This document shows, one piece after another, positions 3,957 to 50,583 of a stretch of DNA of 64,000 nt (position 1 is the stretch's first letter; the number at the start of each line of letters is the position of its first letter). The position numbers were made by a program, and so were the translations under genes. The stretch is from Thermoflexus hugenholtzii (lineage in GTDB: Bacteria > Chloroflexota > Anaerolineae > Thermoflexales > Thermoflexaceae). The stretch is taken from NCBI RefSeq assembly GCF_018771565.1, contig NZ_CP076326.1, forward strand, positions 310,001-374,000, written 5' to 3'. The notes beneath the pieces were generated by a model. That model searched no databases. It worked only from the letters and a program-made list of their open reading frames with translations, and was not told the DNA's origin.

Positions 3957-4755
3957 GGGCTCCTCCCAGGGCGCGTCCGCTGAGATAGCCCAGATAGGCG
4001 GGGACCAGCGGGAACACGCATGGCGAGAAGAAGGAAAGGAGCCCTGCCAGGAAGGCGACCGGATAGCCCAGCCCCACCCCGGGCCCCACATCCAGGAACA
4101 GGCCCATCCGGAAGGTCCATACCCGCAGGTGGGTGAAGGTTGGGATCCACGGAGGGACCTCGAAGCCCGGGAAGAAGAACCGCAGCGCGTCCAGCAGCAC
4201 CATTGCGCCGACGAGGATCAGGAAAACGCCGCTGATGGCCTGGAGGGTCGGCAGGAACCGGCGCATCCGGCGCATGCCAGCCAGGGCTCGATCCAGCAGG
4301 AGGGCGATGACCAGGAAGGGGATCCCGAGGCCGGCGGCGTAAGCGGCCAGCAGCCCCAGAGCCTGGCCGGCGGTCTCCTGCTGGAAAGTGAGGGTGAGGA
4401 TCGCCCCCAGGGTGGGGCCGACGCAGGGGGTCCATCCGGCGGCGAAGAAGATGCCCATCAGGGCGGAGGTGAGATAGCCCATGGGCCGCAGCTCGACGTG
4501 GGGCCGCCACTCGGAGAGGATCAGGGCGGAGATCCCGGGGATGGGGACCCCCAGGATGGCCAGCCCCATCAGGATCACCAGGGTTCCGCCGAGCGCGGCC
4601 AGGAGATCGCGCCCGCCGAAGAAGAGCTGGCCCAGCAGGGTGGCGGCCCCACCCCAGGCGAAGACGAACACTACGGAGAACCCCAGGACGAAGGCGAGGG
4701 CGTGGGAGAAGACACGCCACCGGAGGGAGAGGGAAGTCGCCTCACCGGCCTGCAT
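3949..4755 (-). CDS. ccdA: CcdA/DsbD-type thiol-reducing membrane protein, apparently circularly permuted
   Basis: CcdA carries electrons from cytoplasmic thioredoxin across the membrane to TlpA/CcmG-type proteins. All of its hallmark segments are present in 268 residues but in an unusual order. Family members normally begin with the FxSPCVxPLxPAYL helix. Here the protein begins with HALAFVLGFSVVFVF, runs through AAGWTPCVGPTLGAIL and ISGVFLILVG, and only then ends with FLAGLLSFFSPCVFPLVPAY. Six membrane segments are countable, so both termini would lie on one side of the membrane and a permutation is topologically reasonable. Both redox cysteines (TPC, SPC) are kept. The start overlaps the ccmD-like gene by 14 bases. 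Confidence 0.85.
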   Translation of the reverse strand: MQAGEATSLSLRWRVFSHALAFVLGFSVVFVFAWGGAATLLGQLFFGGRDLLAALGGTLVILMGLAILGVPIPGISALILSEWRPHVELRPMGYLTSALMGIFFAAGWTPCVGPTLGAILTLTFQQETAGQALGLLAAYAAGLGIPFLVIALLLDRALAGMRRMRRFLPTLQAISGVFLILVGAMVLLDALRFFFPGFEVPPWIPTFTHLRVWTFRMGLFLDVGPGVGLGYPVAFLAGLLSFFSPCVFPLVPAYLGYLSGRALGGAHA

Positions 4756-5656: not shown

Positions 5657-7198
5657 TCAGGCGCCCGCCGCCTCTTCGAAGATCAGTCCGCCCACGGTCA
5701 GGAGGATGATATCATACGCCAGCATCATCTGCATCCATGTCCCCCATCCCTCGGGGTCCCCCTCCAGGGCCGCCCGGGTGCCCTGGATCCCGGCGATGAG
5801 CAGCGGGGCGGCGACCGGGAACAGTAAGATGGGCAGCAGCAGCTCCCGGGTGCGGGTTGCCATGGCCATCGCAGATAGGAGGGTGGTCACCCCCGCCAGC
5901 CCGGCTGTCCCCAGGCCCAGCAGCAGCAGGATCCGGGGCTCCCAGAGGGAAAGGTTGAAGAAGACCGCGGCGGCCAGCAGGGAGAGACCGATCACCAGCG
6001 CGAGCAGGAGCCCGTGGACGAGGGCCTTGCCGGCGAACAAGGCGCTGCGATCCGCCGGGGCCATGAGCAACCCCTCCCACGTCCCTCGGTCCATCTCCGC
6101 CGCCATCATCCGTCCCACCCCCAGACTGCTGGCGAAAAGAAGCAGCATCCAGAGGAAGGCCGGGACCACGGCGCGGGCCAAGTCCGGGCGCAGCTCGAAG
6201 GCCGCCCCGAACAGGAACAGGCTCAGCCCGGCCAGGGTGAGGGTCGGCATCAGGGCCTCCCGGGCCCGCCCCTCCACGCGCAGGTCCTTCCCGAGCAACG
6301 CCCGGAGCACGCGCAGCTCCCCGCGCCCGCCGGTTGGAGCCCCCGGTGAGGCGCGCCGGGGGGTCCTGGCGCTTCCCTCCGGTTGCATCCGGCTGGGCGC
6401 CGGCTCCTGCCTCAGGGGCGGACGAAGGGCCTGTCGGTCCCCGGCTGGCCGGAGAGCGAACGCATAGATCTCCCGCAGTGCCTCCGCGGGGAGATCCTGC
6501 GGAGTGCCTTCCGCGACATCGCGCCCGCCGGCCAACACCACCACCCGATGGGCCAGGGAGGCGGCCGCCGGCTCATGCAGGGCGATCAATAGGGCACGCC
6601 CCTGATCGGCCAGCATCCGGAGGGCCTCCTGTGCCCGGTCCATCCCCACCACGTCCAGTCCGGTGAAGGGTTCGTCCAGGAGCAGCACCGGGGCCGGGGA
6701 GAGCAGCACCCGGGCCAGGGCGAGCCGTTGCAGCATCCCTCGGGAGAACGTCCGAACCGGATCCCCGGCGCGGTCCGCCAGGCCCATCCGCTCCAGGGCC
6801 GCGCGCAGCGCCTCGGGATCCTCCGGCCAGCCGTAGAGGCGCTGGGCGAAACGCAGGTTCTCCTCAGCGGTGAGGTCCGGGTAGAGCCAGGGCTGATGGC
6901 CCAGCAAGGTGACCTGCGCCCGCACCCCGGGGCCGTCCGGCGGCCAGCGCCGGTCCCCTACATAGACGACGCCGGCCGTGGGGCGGAGGAGGGTGGCCAG
7001 CACCCGGAGCAGGGTGCTTTTGCCGGCGCCGTTCGGCCCCATCAGGGCCACGATCTCTCCGGGGCGCACGCTCAGGGAGACCCCGCGCAGCGCCCACCGG
7101 GGACCGAAGGCCTTCGCCACCCCATCCGCGCGCAGGATCGGGGGCGCGCCCCACGCGGTTCCCATTTCCTCTCCGCGAGCCTGGGTCCGGACATCCAC
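5657..7198 (-). CDS. CcmA-CcmB fusion: heme-exporter ATPase and permease in one polypeptide
   Basis: Residues about 20-250 are an ABC ATPase with Walker A GPNGAGKST, signature TFSRGMLQRLALA, Walker B PVLLLDEPFTGLD and the H-loop ALHEPAA. A Pro/Arg-rich linker of roughly 40 residues (QEPAPSRMQPEGSARTPRRA) follows, and residues about 295-513 form a six-helix CcmB-type permease. CcmA and CcmB are usually separate proteins. They release holo-CcmE from CcmC at the cost of ATP. The reading frame is uninterrupted and both domains look intact. The gene begins right at the edge of the repeat array. Confidence 0.9.
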   Translation of the reverse strand: MDVRTQARGEEMGTAWGAPPILRADGVAKAFGPRWALRGVSLSVRPGEIVALMGPNGAGKSTLLRVLATLLRPTAGVVYVGDRRWPPDGPGVRAQVTLLGHQPWLYPDLTAEENLRFAQRLYGWPEDPEALRAALERMGLADRAGDPVRTFSRGMLQRLALARVLLSPAPVLLLDEPFTGLDVVGMDRAQEALRMLADQGRALLIALHEPAAASLAHRVVVLAGGRDVAEGTPQDLPAEALREIYAFALRPAGDRQALRPPLRQEPAPSRMQPEGSARTPRRASPGAPTGGRGELRVLRALLGKDLRVEGRAREALMPTLTLAGLSLFLFGAAFELRPDLARAVVPAFLWMLLLFASSLGVGRMMAAEMDRGTWEGLLMAPADRSALFAGKALVHGLLLALVIGLSLLAAAVFFNLSLWEPRILLLLGLGTAGLAGVTTLLSAMAMATRTRELLLPILLFPVAAPLLIAGIQGTRAALEGDPEGWGTWMQMMLAYDIILLTVGGLIFEEAAGA

Positions 7199-8745
7199 GA
7201 GCGGTGCCGATCTCCTTATGGAATCCGATTTCGGTCGACTCCGGCCGACGGCCGGAGGCTTTCCCGCCGATTGAAATCGGCCTCTCCGGGCGCTGCGCGC
7301 CGGGCGTCGGCCTTCGCCGACGCAGAAGACACCTTCCCGGTCGGCGCAGGCCGACCGTTGGCCGAAGGCCTTCCGAGGTCGAATTCATTCGGCGCACAGG
7401 CCGACCGATGGCCGAAGGCTTTCCCGCCGATTGAAATCGGCCTCTCCGGGCGCTCCGCGCCGGGCGTCGGCCTTCGCCGACGCAGGGAACGCTTTTCGGT
7501 CGGCACAGGTCGACCGGTTGGCTGAAGGCCTTCCGAGGCCGAATTCATTCGGCGCACAGGCCGGCCGACGGCCGGAGGCTTTCCCGCCGATTGAAATCGG
7601 CCTTCTCAGGCGCTTTTGCGCCGGGCGTCGGCCTCCGCCGACGCAAATGAGATCTCCCGGTCGGCGCAGGCCGGCCGATGGCCGGAGGCCTTCCCGCCGA
7701 TTGAAATCGGCCTCTCCGGGCGCTGCGCGCCAAGCGTCGGCCTCCACCGACGCAGAAGATACCTTCCCGGTCGGCGCAGGCCGGCCGATGGCCGGAGGCC
7801 TTCCCGCCGATTGAAATCGGCCTCTCCGGGCGCTGCGCGCCGGGCGTCGGCCTTCGCCGACGCAGAAGACACCTTCCCGGTCGGCGCAGGCCGACCGTTG
7901 GCCGAAGGCCTTCCGAGGTCGAATTCATTCGGCGCACAGGCCGACCGATGGCCGAAGGCTTTCCCGCCGATTGAAATCGGCCTCTCCGGGCGCTCCGCGC
8001 CGGGCGTCGGCCTCCGCCGACGCAGAAGACACCTTCTCGGTCGGCGCAGGCCGACCGTTGGCTGAAGGCCTTCCGAGGCCGAATTCATTCGGCGCACAGG
8101 CCGGCCGTCGGCCGAAGGCTTTCCCGCCGATTGAAATCGGCCTTCTCAGGCGCTTTTGCGCCGGGCGTCGGCCTTCGCCGACGCAGAAGACACCTTCCCG
8201 GTCGGCACAGGCCGACCGATGGCCGAAGGCCTTCCGAGGTCGAATTCATTCGGCGCACAGGCCGACCGATGGCCGAAGGCTTTCCCGCCGATTGAAATCG
8301 GCCTCTCCGGGCGCTGCGCGCCGGGCGTCGGCCTTCGCCGACGCAGAAGACACCTTCCCGGTCGGCGCAGGCCGACCGTTGGCCGAAGGCCTTCCGAGGC
8401 CGAATTCATTCGGCGCACAGGCCGGCCGACGGCCGAAGGCTTTCCCGCCGATTGAAATCGGCCTCTCCGGGCGCTCCGCGCCAAGCGTCGGCCTCCGCCG
8501 ACGCAGAAGACACCTTCTCGGTCGGCGCAGGCCGACCGTTGGCCGAAGGCCTTCAAAGGCCGAATTCATTCGGCGCACAGGCCGGCCGTCGGCCGAAGGC
8601 CTTGGCGCCGATTGAAATCGGCCTCCGCCGACGCAAAAGGTGCTTTTCCAGGTCGGCGTAGGCCGACCACCGGCCAAAGGCCCCTGGAGGCCGAATTCAT
8701 TCGGCGCACAGGCCGACCGATGGCCGAAGGCCCTCCAGGTCGAAT
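7199..8745. repeat. Composite hairpin repeat array with 160/110-bp period
   Basis: About 1.5 kb of tandem composite repeats. The marker GATTGAAATCGG occurs ten times, at 7269, 7429, 7589, 7699, 7809, 7969, 8129, 8290, 8450 and 8610, giving spacings of 160, 160, 110, 110, 160, 160, 161, 160 and 160. Each long unit contains several palindromes: GCCGATTgaAATCGGC, GCGTCGGCcttcGCCGACGC, GGTCGGCgcagGCCGACC and CGAATtcATTCG. The 110-bp form lacks the module with GAATTCATTC. Every frame is nearly free of stops, which creates long spurious ORFs. A second array in the opposite orientation lies at 24251-24836. Confidence 0.9.
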
Positions 8746-10464
8746 TCATTCGACGCCCATCCGGCGCATGGCGCGGGCCTTCAGGGCGGCCCGCCGCCGG
8801 CGGTAGGTCGCCTCGTCCACCTCCCCCGCCGCGTAGGCCTCGTCCAGTCGGGCGAGCTCCTCGATGGGATCCACCTGTCGGCCCCACCTGAACCATACCA
8901 TCCCGGCCGCCAGCCCTGCGCCGAGGATCAGCAGGACCGGGACCAGCCAGCCGGGAGCCGCCGAGCGGGGCCGCAGGGCAAGGGTGATCGCCTGCCCCGG
9001 ATCCGGAGGCCGGATCTCATAGAGACGATACACCGTTGATCCCAGGGTGCGCAGTCCCAGATCCCGGATCCCGGGGCCGGTCGCTTCCATCGCGTCGCCT
9101 GCGATCAGGAGGTTCCACTGGGCGACCGGATACAGGGAGCGCAGGGTCAGCGTCCGCGCCCGGGCCAGGGGGAGCTCATACCCGAACGCCGCCTGATAGC
9201 CCATCCCGGGCGGGATGGCCGCGGTGTCGATCAAGCGTTCTCCTTCCTGTCGGTAACGGGCGCCCAGCTCGCCCTCGGCGATCTGAAGGTTGGACGCGCC
9301 CGGAGGAAGGAAGAAGATCATCCCGGGGTTCCCGGCGCCTCCATAGGCGGCCGATCCCCGGTTTGAGTAGATCCAGATCTCGGTCACCAGCAGGCGATCC
9401 GCCAGCGGCTGTAGGATCCAGTGGGCCTGATCGATGTGGATCCCTCCGGGGTCCGCTGTCCGGTCGAAGACCATCAGCGTCACTGTGAGCGCATGCCCGG
9501 CGGTCAGGGTGAGCGGATGGGCCGCCGGGTAAGCGATCTCCTGCCACTCCGCCATCGGGAGGTAATCGGCCTCCGCATACACCGGCACCTCAGGGAAGCG
9601 GAAGCTCCCATCGGCCGCCGTGCGGGTCGTCTGCGAGAAGATCGGGGAGGACCCGATCAGGGCGTAGAGGGTGACGGTGACGCCGGCCGCGGGCGCCTCG
9701 GTCGCTCCGTGGAGGACCTGGCCGCTCACCTCGGCGCTCCCGGTCGGGCGGGGTGGATCCCGAACCTCTCGATCCGCGACGGTGAAGGCCAGATCCGGGA
9801 GATAAGCGACGAGGGCCTGCCGGATCTCCGGGGCGAGCTCGGGCAGCCCGGCGTGGGCGGGGACCCGTTCCGGCCGCAGCGCTTCGATCCATGCGGCGGG
9901 GGCTGCCCGGAGCAGCCGCTCCGGATCCGCGAGGGAAGCCGCCCCCTCGCGTCCATCCGCGCCGTGGCATGCCGCGCACGCCTCCCGGTAGCGCTGTGGG
10001 GCGCTGGCCCGGGCTTCGGGCGGCACGGCCAGAGACCATGCGTAGAAAACGACGGCCCAGCGCTCCGCCTCGCTGAGGGCGTTCGCCCAGGGCGGCATGC
10101 CCCGCTCCGGTCGCCCCTCACTGACCACTCGGAACCAGTCCCACAGGGAAGCGGTGCGGGCCGCGAAGTCCTGCGTCAGGTCCAGGCGGGCGTCCGGGAA
10201 GCGGGCGCGGAGGGCGGTCGCCTGAGGGCCGTCGCCGCGCCCCAGCGCGCCGTGGCACGCGGCGCAGCGCTCCCGGAAGATCGTCTGGCCGGTCTTGAGG
10301 GAGAGGGAGGCCGGGGGAAGCGCCGGCGTGGGGGTGGGCATCGGCTGGGTCCGGAAGGGAACATCGCCGGCGGGCGGAGGGGCGGCCAGGGTCAGGGAGC
10401 AGCCGGTGAGGAGGATCCCGGCGAGCAGAAGCGGGAGGAGGGTGTGGGGAAGGCGTGGGCTCAT
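8746..10464 (-). CDS. Diheme c-type cytochrome lipoprotein with carboxypeptidase-regulatory-like domain
   Basis: This 572-residue protein has a lipobox (GILLTGC, Cys22) and two CxxCH heme sites: CAACH at 67-71 and CAACH at 163-167, with Met123 in RGMPPW as a likely axial ligand. Residues about 245-300 (VSGQVLHGATEAPAAGVTVT onward) look like a carboxypeptidase-regulatory beta-sandwich, followed by a larger beta-rich region, one membrane helix (VPVLLILGAGLAAGMVWF) and a short SHOCT-like helical tail. It is probably an electron-transfer protein on the outer membrane face, and a substrate of the surrounding Ccm machinery. The stop codon lies in the first hairpin of the repeat array. Confidence 0.85.
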   Translation of the reverse strand: MSPRLPHTLLPLLLAGILLTGCSLTLAAPPPAGDVPFRTQPMPTPTPALPPASLSLKTGQTIFRERCAACHGALGRGDGPQATALRARFPDARLDLTQDFAARTASLWDWFRVVSEGRPERGMPPWANALSEAERWAVVFYAWSLAVPPEARASAPQRYREACAACHGADGREGAASLADPERLLRAAPAAWIEALRPERVPAHAGLPELAPEIRQALVAYLPDLAFTVADREVRDPPRPTGSAEVSGQVLHGATEAPAAGVTVTLYALIGSSPIFSQTTRTAADGSFRFPEVPVYAEADYLPMAEWQEIAYPAAHPLTLTAGHALTVTLMVFDRTADPGGIHIDQAHWILQPLADRLLVTEIWIYSNRGSAAYGGAGNPGMIFFLPPGASNLQIAEGELGARYRQEGERLIDTAAIPPGMGYQAAFGYELPLARARTLTLRSLYPVAQWNLLIAGDAMEATGPGIRDLGLRTLGSTVYRLYEIRPPDPGQAITLALRPRSAAPGWLVPVLLILGAGLAAGMVWFRWGRQVDPIEELARLDEAYAAGEVDEATYRRRRAALKARAMRRMGVE

Positions 10465-20741: not shown

Positions 20742-21069
20742 GGCGTCAGGGCGATCGACGGCGAAAGGAAGGATTTTTCTGTAGGAGGGGCTTTCGCCCC
20801 GAACTTTCCGTCTTCGAGACCCCAAAGGCCACGGATGAAGGCGCCCCCTGCAGCCCTGAACCCTCCGCCTTCGATGACGCAAGGGTCGCGGCTAAAGCCG
20901 CTCCTACCAAAAGACATCGTTCTTTTTGGTAGGAGGGGCTTCAGCCCCGAACTCCTATCTTCGATGAGGTAAAAGATCCCGGTGGAGATCGCCCCCTGTC
21001 ACCCTAAACCTCCGTCTTCTCGATCCCGCGGGGTGGCGGCGGAGGCCGCTCCTACTGTCCTGCGAAATG
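20742..21069. repeat. Alternating REP-like hairpin elements
   Basis: Non-coding. It contains four copies of the GTAGGAG hairpin family: plus orientation at about 20782-20805 (GTAGGAGGGGCTTTCGCCCC) and 20929-20952, minus orientation at about 20886-20909 (GTCGCGGCTAAAGCCGCTCC) and a diverged minus copy near 21038-21055. The alternating orientation resembles bacterial BIME clusters. Some copies pair with each other and may terminate the tad transcript. Confidence 0.75.
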
Positions 21070-21155: not shown

Positions 21156-22955
21156 ATGGCGTTCTCGATGGGCTGGGAGGAACCCAGGAGTCCGTTCTGC
21201 CGGCTGCTGAAGGATCGGATCGATCTCTACCACGTGCCCTTCAGCGAACGGTCCTCGCGCATGATGGTGTTCGCCGAGGACCTGCGCCCGGGGGTGCCCG
21301 GGTTGTTCATCAGGCTGGCCGAGCGCTGGGAGAAGCAGCAGGAGAAGTTCGGCGATTACCGCCAGCGCCGTCCCATCGTGGAGCGCATGGTCTTCATCGG
21401 CCCCGATGGCGAGCCGTTGCCCGTCTCCTTCACCGCTTACCCCCATGCGGTGTTCTTCCATACCCCCCGCGGGACCATCGGGATGACCTTCAACGATCCG
21501 GAGGCCCTCTACTTCTCCCTTCCTCCGGAGTCCATCGGCTTCCAGTTCGTCGCCCAGGCGGAGACCGCCCGCGCCGATCGCCGGGGCGGGATCCTGCGAG
21601 GGGTGCGCAACCTCGCCTATACGACGAACGCCCGCCTGCGCCTCAATCAAATCGAGTCCGCCGGCCCCGGCCTCTTCCGGATCACGTTCCTGGTCGAGCC
21701 CACCCCGGACGCCGCCGTCCTGCTGAACATCACCCCTCGCCTCGGATTCAACCGCAGCCTGCGGCCGGCCCTTCCCGTTTTTCAGGAGGCCGAGGCCCGC
21801 TGGCACGAGTGGTTCGCCGCCGCCCCGCCGGTCCACGAAGCCCTGGCCCCTCAGTATTACTACGCTTGGTGGGTGATGCGGGCCGGGCTGATCTCCCCCC
21901 GCTTCTACATGACCCGCGAGGGGATGACCCCCAGCAAGATCCACTACGTGGGCGTCTGGCAGTGGGACGCCTGCTTCCACGCCCTGGCTTATCGCTACGT
22001 GGACCTCAAGCTGGCGGAGGATCAGATCCGCCTGGTCCTGGATCACCAGCGGGAGGACGGGATGATCCCCGATGCGGTGCACGATGAAGGCCGGGTCACC
22101 CATCTTCCGCTGCCGGTGGACGCGGACGTGACCAAGCCGCCGATCACCGCCTGGGCGGCCTGGAAGATCTACGAGATGGGGGGCGATCGGGATTTCCTGG
22201 ATGAGATCTACGAGCCTCTGGTGCGCTGGAACCGGTGGTGGTTCGAACGGAACGACGACGACCGGGATGGCCTGTGCCAGTATAACCACCCTTATTCCTC
22301 CGGCTGGGACGATTCCCCGGTGTGGGATGGGGGGATGCCGGTGGAGTCGCCGGACCTCAACACCTACCTGGTGATCCAGATGGAGCATCTCGCCCGCATC
22401 GCTGAGGTGATCGGAGAGACGGAGGACGCGGCGCGCTGGCGGGCCGAGGCGGAGGCCCTCACCCAGCGCATGATCGCGGCGATGTGGGATGAGGAGGCCG
22501 GCCTGTTCTGGCCGTTGCGGCGGGAGCAGCCGGTGCGCATCAAGACCCCCCTCAGCCTCTACCCGCTGCTCACCGGACGCCTCCCCCGGCCCATCGTGGA
22601 GCGGCTGGTGGCCCATCTGCAGGATCCGCACGCCTTCTGGCCGCGCTATCCCATCCCCACCGTGGCCCTGGACGATCCGCACTATAATCCGGAGCAGATG
22701 TGGCGCGGCCCCACCTGGCTGAACATCAACCGCCTCTTCATCGAGGGGCTGTTCCGGTGCGGATACCCGGAGCTGGCCCGAGAGCTGCGGCGGCGCACCC
22801 TCCGGCTGGCCATGGGCCATCGCGATCTCTACGAGTATTACCATCCGGAGACCGGCGGACGGCCGCCCCGCGCCGCTCCCATCTTCGGCTGGACCTCAGC
22901 GGTGTTCATCGAGCTGGCCATCGAGGCCAGCCGGGAGCCCGACCTGGATCTCTGA
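21156..22955 (+). CDS. GH63-type (alpha/alpha)6 glycoside hydrolase, possibly a glucosylglycerate/mannosylglycerate hydrolase
   Basis: 599 residues. An N-terminal beta-rich region of about 200 residues precedes an (alpha/alpha)6 barrel with VGVWQWDACFHALAYRYVDL, DHQREDGMIPDAV, TKPPITAWAAWKIYE, SSGWDDSPVWDGG (likely catalytic acid Asp), MWRGPTWLNINRLF and LYEYYHPETGG (likely base Glu). These motifs match GH63 enzymes, which include glucosylglycerate and mannosylglycerate hydrolases and trehalase-like enzymes. A glucosyl-3-phosphoglycerate synthase fusion is in this same window, which favours the compatible-solute reading, but specificity is inference. The start at 21156 follows GGGAAGGGAGGTGCG. 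Confidence 0.8.
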   Translation: MAFSMGWEEPRSPFCRLLKDRIDLYHVPFSERSSRMMVFAEDLRPGVPGLFIRLAERWEKQQEKFGDYRQRRPIVERMVFIGPDGEPLPVSFTAYPHAVFFHTPRGTIGMTFNDPEALYFSLPPESIGFQFVAQAETARADRRGGILRGVRNLAYTTNARLRLNQIESAGPGLFRITFLVEPTPDAAVLLNITPRLGFNRSLRPALPVFQEAEARWHEWFAAAPPVHEALAPQYYYAWWVMRAGLISPRFYMTREGMTPSKIHYVGVWQWDACFHALAYRYVDLKLAEDQIRLVLDHQREDGMIPDAVHDEGRVTHLPLPVDADVTKPPITAWAAWKIYEMGGDRDFLDEIYEPLVRWNRWWFERNDDDRDGLCQYNHPYSSGWDDSPVWDGGMPVESPDLNTYLVIQMEHLARIAEVIGETEDAARWRAEAEALTQRMIAAMWDEEAGLFWPLRREQPVRIKTPLSLYPLLTGRLPRPIVERLVAHLQDPHAFWPRYPIPTVALDDPHYNPEQMWRGPTWLNINRLFIEGLFRCGYPELARELRRRTLRLAMGHRDLYEYYHPETGGRPPRAAPIFGWTSAVFIELAIEASREPDLDL

Positions 22956-23023
22956 TCCCCGCGATTTCGGGAACAGCGCCATGCGGGGGCGGAGGGATCG
23001 CACCTGCGGCAGGGAACCTGGGG

Positions 23024-24250
23024 ATGACGCGGATCCGGTTGACCCTGGAACAGATCGCCCACGGCGGCGAGGCCATCGGCCGCCATGAGGGCAAGGTGAT
23101 CTTCGTCCCCTTCGGGATCCCCGGGGAGCAGGTGGAGATCGAGGTGGTGGAGGACCACCGCTCGTATGCCCGGGGACGGATCCTCCGGGTGCTCCGCCCG
23201 GCGCCGGAGCGGGTCGATCCGCCGTGCCCCCATTTCGGGACCTGCGGGGGGTGTCATTTCCAGCACATCGCCTATGAGGCCCAGCTGCGCCTCAAAGAGG
23301 CCGTCGTCCGGGATGCCTTGCGCCGCATCGGAAAGATCGAGGACCCGCCGGTGCGTCCGATGATCCCCAGCCCCGACCCCTTCGGCTACCGGAACCAGGT
23401 CCAGTTCTCCGTCTCCGCCGACGGGCGCCTGGGCTTCCAGGCCATGCGCTCCCACCGGGTGATCCCGATCACCCGATGCTGGATCGCCCATCCCATGCTC
23501 CAGGAGCTCTACGAGGCCCTGGAGATCGAAGGGCTGCCCCTGCGCCGCCTCACCCTTCGTTGCGGCGTCCGCACCGGGGACCGCATGGTGATCTTCGAGA
23601 CGGAAGGGGACGAACCCCCTCTCCTGGAGACCGATCTGCGGGTCTCCCTGGTCCTGCTCACGCAGGAGGAGAAGGCCGTCCCGCTCATCGGCCTGGATTA
23701 CCTTACGGAGGAGGTGGACGGGTTCCGTTTCCGCATCTCCGCGCCCAGCTTCTTCCAGACGAACACCGCGGTGGCGGAAGCCCTCGTTCGCCGGGTTCGG
23801 GAATGGGCGGACCTGCGCGGGACGGAGGCCGTCCTGGATGCGTATGGCGGGGTCGGGCTGTTCGCAGCCCATCTCGCGCCCTTCGCCCGGCGGGTGGTGC
23901 TGATCGAGGCGCACCCCGCGGCCGCCGCCGACGCCCGCTTCAATCTCTCCGAGTTCCCCCACGTGGAGATCCGGATGGGAACGGTGGAGGAGGTGGCGCC
24001 GGGGCTGGAGGGCCCTTTCGATGTGGTCGTGGTGGACCCGCCGCGGACCGGGTGTTCGCCGGAGGCCCTGGAGGCGCTGCAAGCCCTGCGCCCCTCCCGC
24101 TGGATCTACGTCTCCTGCGACCCGGCCACCCTGGCCCGGGACGCCCGACGCCTGATCGATGCCGGGTATCGCCTGGTGGAAGTCCAGCCGTTCGACATGT
24201 TCCCGCAGACCTATCACATCGAGACGGTCTCGCTGTTCGTGCGGGCGTAG
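23024..24250 (+). CDS. rlmD: 23S rRNA/tRNA (uracil-5-)-methyltransferase, RlmD/TrmA family
   Basis: 408 residues: an N-terminal TRAM domain (TLEQIAHGGEAIGRHEGKVI), a 4Fe-4S cluster motif (Cys68, Cys74, Cys77 in CPHFGTCGGC, fourth Cys in ITRCWIAHP), and a SAM-dependent domain with LDAYGGVGLFAAHLA, VVVDPPRTGCSPEAL and the catalytic IYVSCDPATLARD. It methylates C5 of a uridine in rRNA. Which uridine cannot be decided here, so rlmD versus rlmCD is uncertain. It follows the hydrolase gene by 68 bases. The stop codon touches the second repeat array. Confidence 0.9.
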   Translation: MTRIRLTLEQIAHGGEAIGRHEGKVIFVPFGIPGEQVEIEVVEDHRSYARGRILRVLRPAPERVDPPCPHFGTCGGCHFQHIAYEAQLRLKEAVVRDALRRIGKIEDPPVRPMIPSPDPFGYRNQVQFSVSADGRLGFQAMRSHRVIPITRCWIAHPMLQELYEALEIEGLPLRRLTLRCGVRTGDRMVIFETEGDEPPLLETDLRVSLVLLTQEEKAVPLIGLDYLTEEVDGFRFRISAPSFFQTNTAVAEALVRRVREWADLRGTEAVLDAYGGVGLFAAHLAPFARRVVLIEAHPAAAADARFNLSEFPHVEIRMGTVEEVAPGLEGPFDVVVVDPPRTGCSPEALEALQALRPSRWIYVSCDPATLARDARRLIDAGYRLVEVQPFDMFPQTYHIETVSLFVRA

Positions 24251-24836
24251 CGACGCCGAATGAATTCGGCCTCCAGAGGCCTTCGGCCGATGGTCGGCCT
24301 GCGCCGACCGGGAGGGTGTCTTCTGCGTCGGTGGAGGCCGACGCTTGGCGCGGAGCGCCTGGAGAGGCCGATTTCAATCGGCGTGAGAGCCTTCGGCCGA
24401 CGGTCGGCCTGCGCGCCGAATGAATTCGGCCTTCGAAGGCCTTCGGCCGACGGTCGGCCTGCGCCGACCGAAAAGGATATCCTTTGCGTCGGCGGAGGCC
24501 GACGCTTGGCGTGGAGCGCCTGGAGAGGCCGATTTCAATCGGCGGGAAAGCCTTCGGCCGACGGTCGGCCTGTGCGCCGAATGAATTCGGCCTTCGAAGG
24601 CCTTCGGCCGACGGTCGGCCTGCGCCGACCGAAAAGGATATCCTTTGCGTCGGCGGAGGCCGACGCTTGGCGTGGAGCGCCTGGAGAGGCCGATTTCAAT
24701 CGGCGGGAGGGCCTTCGGCCGACGGTCGGCCTGCGCCGACCGGGAAGGGGTCTTCTGCGTCGGCGGAGGCCGACGCTTGGCGCGGAGCGCCTGGGGAGGC
24801 CGATTTCAATCGGCGGGAAAGCGACGAGGAGGCCCT
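24251..24836. repeat. Second composite hairpin array, inverted relative to the first
   Basis: The same modules as at 7199-8745 but in reverse complement. GATTTCAATCGG starts at 24370, 24531, 24692 and 24802, giving spacings of 161, 161 and 110, so the long/short unit rule is kept. GCCGAATgaATTCGGC palindromes and GCGTCGGCggagGCCGACGC stems recur. It fills the whole gap between the stop codon of the methyltransferase gene and the ribosome site of the protease gene; no independent gene is seen. Confidence 0.88.
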
Positions 24837-49925: not shown

Positions 49926-50583
49926 CTCCGCTGTTTTCCTCCGACGGGATTCAAGGACGCAAAGGGTCACGGCCACACGCATTGGTCTTTGTAGGAGGGG
50001 CTTTGGCCCCGAACCCCTGCCTTCAAGATCCCAAGGACCACGGCTGAAGCCGCCCCCCACAATCCTGAGCCTTCCGTCTTCGGTGGCGCAAGGGTCGCGG
50101 ATGAAGCCGCTCCTACCAAATGCCGATCTTTCTGTAGAAGGGGCTTCAGCCCGGAACTTTCTGCCTTCGATGGCGCAAAGGGTTGCGGATGAAGCCGCTC
50201 CTACCAAATGCCGATCTTTCTGTAGAAGGGGCTTCAGCCCGGAACTTTCTGCCTTCGATGGCGCAAAGGGTTGCGGATGAAGCCGCTTCCCCCAATCCCA
50301 GGCCTTCCGTCTTCAGTGGCGCAAGGGTCGCGGCTGAAGCCGCTCCTACCAAATGCCGATCTTTCTGTAGGAGGGGCTTCAGCCCCGAACTTTCGGCCTT
50401 CGATGGCGCAAAAGGTCGCGGATGAAGCCGCTTCCCCCAATCCCAGGCCTTCCGTCTTCGGTGGCGCAAAAGGTCGCGGCGAAAGCCGCTCCTACAGAAT
50501 GGATCCCCCATTCGTGGATTCGTGCGGCTATTCGTGGACGGCCCTCCCGCTCTCGCCACGACTGGTCGCGGCGAAAGCCGCTC
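49926..50583. repeat. REP-like cluster with 88-bp tandem duplication
   Basis: Non-coding. GTAGGAGGGGCTTTGG-type hairpins alternate with the complementary AAGCCGCTCCTACC form. Copies of the block beginning ATGAAGCCGC start at 50101, 50189 and 50277, an exact 88-base period over 176 bases, with identical or nearly identical internal sequence (CCGATCTTTCTGTAGAAGG). Similar but diverged copies continue to 50583, and the family also occurs at 827-990 and 20782-21055. The kinase and methyltransferase genes flank it. Confidence 0.85.

Follow-up and report, generated by a model that had tools for sequence, protein, structure and literature searches.

Palindrome arrays of Thermoflexus hugenholtzii as probable REPIN-type elements of a subclass 1.2-type Y1 transposase

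Results

Two arrays of composite palindromes at gene ends

The window, the whole 64,000-nucleotide stretch of Thermoflexus hugenholtzii DNA analysed here, covers positions 310001-374000 of a 3,316,678-base single-contig genome and holds two arrays of composite palindromes (Table 1). In array 1, exact copies of GATTGAAATCGG stand on the + strand at 7269, 7429, 7589, 7699, 7809, 7969, 8129, 8290, 8450 and 8610, with a spacing of 160, 160, 110, 110, 160, 160, 161, 160 and 160 bases, which reproduces exactly the ten markers of the original prediction. When up to two mismatches are allowed, GATTGAAATCGG has 42 matches against 4.25 expected, a count reached in none of 100 shuffles. The short unit had been described as the long one minus a 50-base module, and the module with GAATTCATTC is indeed absent from both 110-bp steps of array 1. 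The span first given for the array, 7199-8745, contains a real repeat, but the repeat proper runs from about 7241 to 8757, and 7199-7240 is the leader of the adjoining gene; in the related genome G004 this leader adjoins a single unit.

In array 2 the marker recurs on the - strand, at 24368, 24529, 24690 and 24800 (spacing 161, 161 and 110), so the predicted reversal of this array holds for the strand, with the correction that the array's orientation matches its neighbour gene. Both window arrays place a GAATGAATTC hairpin at the upstream gene's stop codon, reading with that gene. Array 2 begins 1 base past the stop codon of the gene at 22700-24250, and ends at the RBS of the next gene, which we take to encode an M50-type peptidase. 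We rejected a CRISPR array, since there are no unique spacers and the entire 160/110-bp period repeats.

At array 1 the stop codon of the upstream gene (8746-8760) is supplied by the repeat, its TGA lying inside GAATGAATTC, and the same is seen in G004; in G001, which is repeat-free at this site, the upstream gene has a different end. The window also contains a second dispersed family of palindromes, which have GTAG at the foot of the hairpin and periods of 88 and 145 bp, at 49991-50570, 20772-21055 and 827-958. Copies of this family also enclose a true RAYT gene that lies 5 kb ahead of the window.

Table 1 Features of the two window arrays, their neighbour genes and the type unit (window coordinates).
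Feature	Position	Strand	Description
Downstream gene of array 1	5657..7198	-	ABC-transporter ATP-binding protein, CcmA-like, above TIGR01189 cut-off
Array 1	7241..8757	-	Ten units, 160/110/161-bp steps; reads with upstream gene 8746-10464(-)
Upstream gene of array 1	8746..10464	-	c-type-cytochrome-like domain; TGA stop within GAATGAATTC of first H1 hairpin
Upstream gene of array 2	22700..24250	+	RlmD-type 23S rRNA methyltransferase, above TIGR00479 cut-off
Array 2	24252..24829	+	Four units (161, 161, 110)
Type unit	24255..24382	+	H1 (A), small hairpin C1, H2 (C2, CTGC loop), linker, inverted H2 (D), small hairpin E, inverted H1 (B)
H1 hairpin A	24255..24270	+	GCCGAATGAATTCGGC, TGAA centre
H2 hairpin C2	24292..24309	+	GGTCGGC-CTGC-GCCGACC
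H2 hairpin D	24324..24343	+	GCGTCGGT-GGAG-GCCGACGC; CTCC loop on the other strand
H1 hairpin B	24367..24382	+	GCCGATTTCAATCGGC, inverted relative of A

The unit consists of two hairpin modules facing each other

Read in the neighbouring gene's direction, the unit has the order A-C1-C2-linker-D-E-B. Its first half and the reverse complement of its second half are identical at 43 of 53 positions (score 28.5, maximum of 500 shuffles 15), and because this agreement lies above all shuffles, the unit is an inverted dimer. The basic module comprises an H1 hairpin (GCGA-like stem, TGAA centre) followed in fixed order by an H2 hairpin (stem like GTCNGC, loop CTNC), and the Thermoflexus unit is two such H1-H2 modules facing each other. 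As a single strand the unit is predicted to fold as one long hairpin (z of -6.5 and -5.2 for the two strands), and the optional 50-base module corresponds to one extra A plus part of C. The several perfect stem-loops per unit noticed earlier are borne out across 295 units from six genomes, where the five stems other than E are Watson-Crick in 94-99% of cells. Most units have T-A as the third C2 pair, and many from G008 (Candidatus Thermoflexus japonica) and G001 have C-G there; both-sided stem changes of this kind tell species apart.

Arrays are dispersed between genes

The original prediction held a general role doubtful if no other copies existed; the count across the window's genome gave at least 36 arrays with 176 units. 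One hairpin has 91 + 48 copies genome-wide and the other 57 + 40, and the reversed control patterns have none. According to a simple gene caller, 28 of the 36 arrays intrude no more than 40 bp into either neighbouring gene; as a many-copy repeat between genes, the element has the hallmark of a REP or BIME. No match to the unit was found in two of the nine genomes of the genus Thermoflexus. GC skew in the array-bearing stretches is too weak to place the origin, the reference for array orientation relative to replication, and a window gene searched against plasmids gave no match.

The arrays might act as RNA, as had been suggested, their hairpin chains at the ends of genes serving to stabilise mRNA or to attenuate it. 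The start of both window arrays at a stop codon, reading with the upstream gene, would fit this role, as would the sense orientation of 24 of the 36 arrays relative to the upstream gene. Yet this lean is weak (p = 0.065), with 12 of 36 arrays antisense, and in the stems G-T cells are no more frequent than A-C cells on the sense strand (106 vs 129), so that nothing points to a transcript. The arrays have neither a terminator-like T tail nor terminator-like sites, which are rarer than in shuffles and led us to reject intrinsic terminators. A curated RNA family was likewise rejected, because Rfam at gathering scores gave 0 matches in the window. Taken with these results, a function as RNA appears quite unlikely.

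A single-copy Y1 transposase gene lies between two arrays

A search with Pfam Y1_Tnp identified a Y1 gene at 1827672-1828010(-) of the window's genome (G000), outside the window and between two arrays. Its homologues in G008 and in G003 (Thermoflexus sp. SKYG36) lie likewise, so that arrays enclose the gene in each of the three Thermoflexus genomes that gave a strong match. Arrays bracketing a Y1 gene in this way form a REPtron-like arrangement with an inverted doublet (REPIN). The encoded proteins of 142-157 aa match PF01797, and their nearest solved structures are IS200-type transposases (best E 9e-8). They carry DHLH, WQ and YI[QR]RQKEHH (YIQRQKEHH, YIRRQKEHH), which are motifs of the subclass 1.2 type, a class assigned here by motifs alone. 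All pass the NCBIfam IS200/IS605 model with 58.3-66.6 bits (cut-off 55) and fail the RAYT model NF047646 with 25-27 bits (cut-off 80), showing Y---Q--HH and not Y---NP. The gene is single-copy, G000, G003 and G008 each giving one full match; the several near-identical transposase genes characteristic of IS200/IS605 were not found in these three genomes.

Since the gene passes the IS200/IS605 model, the H1-H2 modules could instead be internally deleted copies of a moving IS200-like element (of the MITE type, or PATEs, as such copies are named), with H1 and H2 as its left-end and right-end hairpins; two unlike hairpins in a fixed order do resemble two ends. However, the gene is single-copy in all three genomes, and whole modules flank it on both sides, not one hairpin per side. 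We consider such an origin unlikely.

The second match in G000 is a true RAYT at ~304.6-305.2 kb (121 bits, YIEENP). This class 2 RAYT was rejected as the arrays' partner because it sits between GTAG-type repeats of another family; as the two enzymes are bracketed by different repeat families, each enzyme lies in its own repeat. In G001, G004 and G006 the arrays persist and the Y1 gene was not found, which indicates that the enzyme is not needed for their upkeep. We also rejected a strict tie of gene presence to array length, since G001 has several multi-unit arrays and no gene was found there.

Related genes in other phyla adjoin the same module

A protein-pattern scan of 84,980 species genomes yielded 54 relatives, and 51 entered the bracket test after omission of the fragments L132 and L136 and of L128, which was too short. 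A repeat common to both 400-base flanks was present at 42 of these 51 relatives; the corresponding count for control windows within these loci was 3 of 150. The shared repeats are direct at 25 loci and inverted at 17, and 32 of the 42 fold better than shuffles (z < -2), compared with 4 of 38 controls. Most hosts are Chloroflexota; Gemmatimonadota, Armatimonadota and others also occur.

Omitting the five Thermoflexus-group loci (L083-L087) left a 47-locus set of non-Thermoflexus genes. CTNC hairpins with stems of at least 6 adjoin the gene at 43 of the 47 loci (6 of 138 control windows), and TNAA-centre hairpins do so at 41 (8 of 138). Of the H2s, 95 have an H1 no more than 90 nt away and a further 20 have none; in 83 of the 95, H1 stands 5' of H2 in the same orientation. 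This order occurs in 39 of the 47 loci, at a median distance of 32 bases. In the Thermoflexus unit consensus the H1-H2 distance is ~38, with a small hairpin between, as in L091-L097.

The H2 stem has a near-constant G at -6, C at -4 and C at -1, and its other letters vary freely. Pairing in the H2 stems of the 47 loci is given by construction, because the search required perfect stems. A pattern that did not constrain two opposing stem positions gave complementary letters there in 148 of the 150 matches listed, where 25% would be expected. Neither the letter frequencies of the 47 loci nor the Thermoflexus unit consensus showed GTAG or GTGG at the feet of H1 and H2.

Loop type and the transposase tree

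A second set of genes was drawn from genomes of the same class; some of its loci are first-set genes, and one is without alignment. Here CTNC hairpins accompanied all seven genes with at least 52% identity, none of 14 other Y---Q--HH (subclass-1.2-type) genes and none of 8 other Y1 genes. In a 73-gene tree, from which five second-set loci were omitted as duplicates of first-set loci, the CTNC label required 4 changes, compared with a shuffled mean of 21.1, and 0 of 500 shuffles came as low. One branch (support 95/87) contains 52 genes, of which 48 carry CTNC hairpins and 4 do not; its hosts are labelled as nine phyla, though most are metagenome bins, for which the labels may be in error. Judged from these sequences, the loop type follows the transposase tree.

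The window's genome contains 282 exact copies of the H2 pattern, and one genome each of Armatimonadota, Gemmatimonadota and Ktedonobacterales contains 100, 75 and 66, respectively; the reversed-pattern control gave 0-3 copies per strand across all 63 genomes. Among 34 gene-bearing genomes, 13 had fewer than five exact copies and 21 had five or more. Among genomes without the gene, this number was attained in 3 of 16 from the class, in 0 of 7 with other-clade genes and in 3 of 6 gene-free Thermoflexus. Outside Thermoflexus, the comparison of 21/34 with and 3/23 without the gene gives p = 0.0003.

These results also bear on the reading of the arrays as DNA-structure sites for chromosome architecture (cruciforms, gyrase or nucleoid-protein binding), with the transposase incidental. 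Such sites would accord with 36 arrays dispersed between genes and with strand-symmetric stem changes, which fit selection on DNA, and there is a precedent in the passages of PMC2817692 on E. coli BIME-2, which binds gyrase. This reading predicts, however, neither loops that follow the transposase tree nor a gene between repeats, and two of the nine genus genomes lack a unit match. We judge it very unlikely.

Array length changes in place

At the site of array 1 the window has ten units, G004 one, G006 one decayed unit and G001 none, with 77 bases between the matched genes; at the site of array 2 the window has four units, G004 two and G006 one decayed. Both belong to the 28 of 36 arrays that align to G004 on both sides. 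All 28 sites are occupied there, and at 27 of them the gap is longer in the window's genome (medians 662 vs 232 bases), a comparison to be read with the 80-contig assembly of G004 in mind, in which collapse may shorten arrays, though contigs run through all sites; this caveat applies to G004's short arrays and not to the single-contig genome of the window. The remaining 8 arrays lack a two-sided G004 alignment; three of them, at the REPtron locus, the L060 array and the second L063 array, are occupied in G004 by other comparisons (two-sided flank matches for L060 and L063), and five are unassigned. Since all aligned sites are occupied and 27 of 28 are shorter in G004, growth or shrinkage in place is favoured over recent spread. 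The recent change is thus in array length and not in position, with the first seeding older.

Units are more alike within arrays than between them (0.896 vs 0.838), as found for 34 of 34 arrays, and array 1 contains an exact 213-bp repeat whose copies are 540 bp apart. Together with array lengths that differ between species at the same site, this supports the recombination-driven gain and loss proposed originally. Homogenisation within arrays and the internal 213-bp duplication would also follow if slippage had simply duplicated an intergenic palindrome in tandem, without any part of the transposase. That process covers array length but neither the dispersal to 36 arrays nor the cross-phylum link, and the flank-repeat, CTNC and tree results make it extremely unlikely.

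The transposase locus of G004 has one unit and no gene. Recombination of flanking direct repeats would yield exactly this state, although the window's lineage may instead have gained the gene. The mobility proposed in the original prediction agrees with the data by association, in that arrays bracket a Y1 gene in three genomes and genes of other phyla show the same pairing. Neither insertion nor excision was observed, and the G004-alignable arrays include no clean empty site. One G004 array (L235 ~2334-2882 vs L243 ~4476-4550) has no counterpart in the window's genome, and its junction is not a clean empty site.

Discussion

REPs are among the commonest bacterial repeats, and how they spread is still argued. 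Our analysis makes it probable that the arrays are tandem BIME-like rows of a REPIN-type non-autonomous element of the subclass 1.2-type Y1 transposase. The reasons for assigning the element to that transposase are the anatomy of the unit, the bracketing of the gene, the same module beside related genes and the match of loop type to the tree.

In the table of the survey by Quentin et al. 2018 (PMC6006769), subclass 1.2 is entered as REP "no", with hosts among Cyanobacteria and Bacteroidetes, and its description there gives the motifs DH[IV]H, WQ and a YIKNQKEHH type in proteins of ~148 aa. The genes studied here resemble that subclass in their DH[IV]H-like, WQ and YI--Q-EHH motifs, their length of ~145 aa and their low copy number. 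They differ from it as tabled in that 42 of 51 loci are repeat-bracketed and that the hosts are mostly Chloroflexota, with Gemmatimonadota, Armatimonadota and others. The titles and abstracts found by searches of the REP, RAYT and IS200 literature and of papers citing that survey, with subscription papers mostly outside, contained no report of repeats beside subclass 1.2 enzymes, and a term search of the Thermoflexus genome paper (PMC8129789) found no passage on palindromes or transposases.

Comparison with other described systems gives a similar mixture. As far as the relevant sections of PMC2817692, PMC3733652, PMC6006769 and PMC8266576 describe it, the REPtron with a class 2 RAYT (TnpA_REP) likewise has a single-copy Y1 gene between dispersed intergenic palindromes, inverted doublets, tandem clusters and an enzyme-specific repeat type. 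Unlike it, the present system has a subclass 1.2-type transposase that falls below the RAYT cut-off, no GTAG at the hairpin foot, and two hairpins with constant letters in the H2 loop (CTNC). IS200/IS605 elements (subclass 1.1) share the HUH/Y1 enzyme, the NCBIfam model and the nearest structures; in contrast to them, a single-copy gene here accompanies hundreds of gene-less repeats. The TIRYT/TIRtron, in its account in PMC3733652, also places a Y1 gene between non-GTAG repeats, some of them dispersed, but has RAYT-like enzymes and inverted repeats, whereas our loci have two-hairpin modules whose shared repeats are more often direct. CGTC-tagged REPs, also treated in PMC3733652, are palindromic, have loops of 4-5 bases and occur in several phyla; they differ in being reported there without a transposase and mainly from alpha-Proteobacteria, a separation made by description only.

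Beyond the association and the anatomy, which are observed, we infer recognition, cutting and mobility by analogy with IS200-type and REP enzymes. The enzyme would recognise H1 and H2 as folded single strands, on the lagging strand or other single-stranded DNA, and would cut and join them, seeding copies between genes. Recognition through the loop is plausible, because some REP enzymes read loop letters, as reported in PMC8266576. Array length could then shift in place through unequal recombination, slippage or enzyme-driven amplification, and direct repeats on either side of the gene could recombine, deleting the gene and leaving one unit.

It also seems rather likely, on the evidence of sequence comparison, that a Y1 branch marked as REP-less has its own two-hairpin repeat superfamily across phyla. 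H1 (TGAA) and H2 (CTNC) would serve as the recognition code, read mainly in the hairpin loop and not at the foot used by GTAG REPs; sister clades would read other loops, and Thermoflexus would represent the longest tandem form, with inverted dimers. Such a branch, the second with a repeat type of its own and present in thermophiles and several phyla, would offer a ready test of specificity in which hairpin loops are compared with enzyme clades. REP-like systems would then include an enzyme group tabled without any, and a class of composite palindrome arrays that gene annotation leaves blank would have an explanation.

Several loci near this branch have palindromes of other kinds. The subclass 1.2-type genes of the G009/G047 clade (L148, L150 and L221-L223) lie beside a different multi-palindrome family without CTNC loops, which has 72 and 61 dispersed matches in these two genomes, in tandem at ~111-120 bp, with 6 matches in G054 and 3 in G013. 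At the sister-clade loci L145, L146, L147, L153, L154, L161 and L162 the flank hairpins often have 3-base NGA/TCN loops, perhaps a parallel loop code. G053 has two subclass 1.2-type genes of different clades (L141 and L161), and CTNC hairpins occur at one alone. Within the CTNC branch itself, the Myxococcota-labelled locus L131 (4001-4402) is without CTNC hairpins and has 72-base inverted repeats on both sides that are 98.6% identical.
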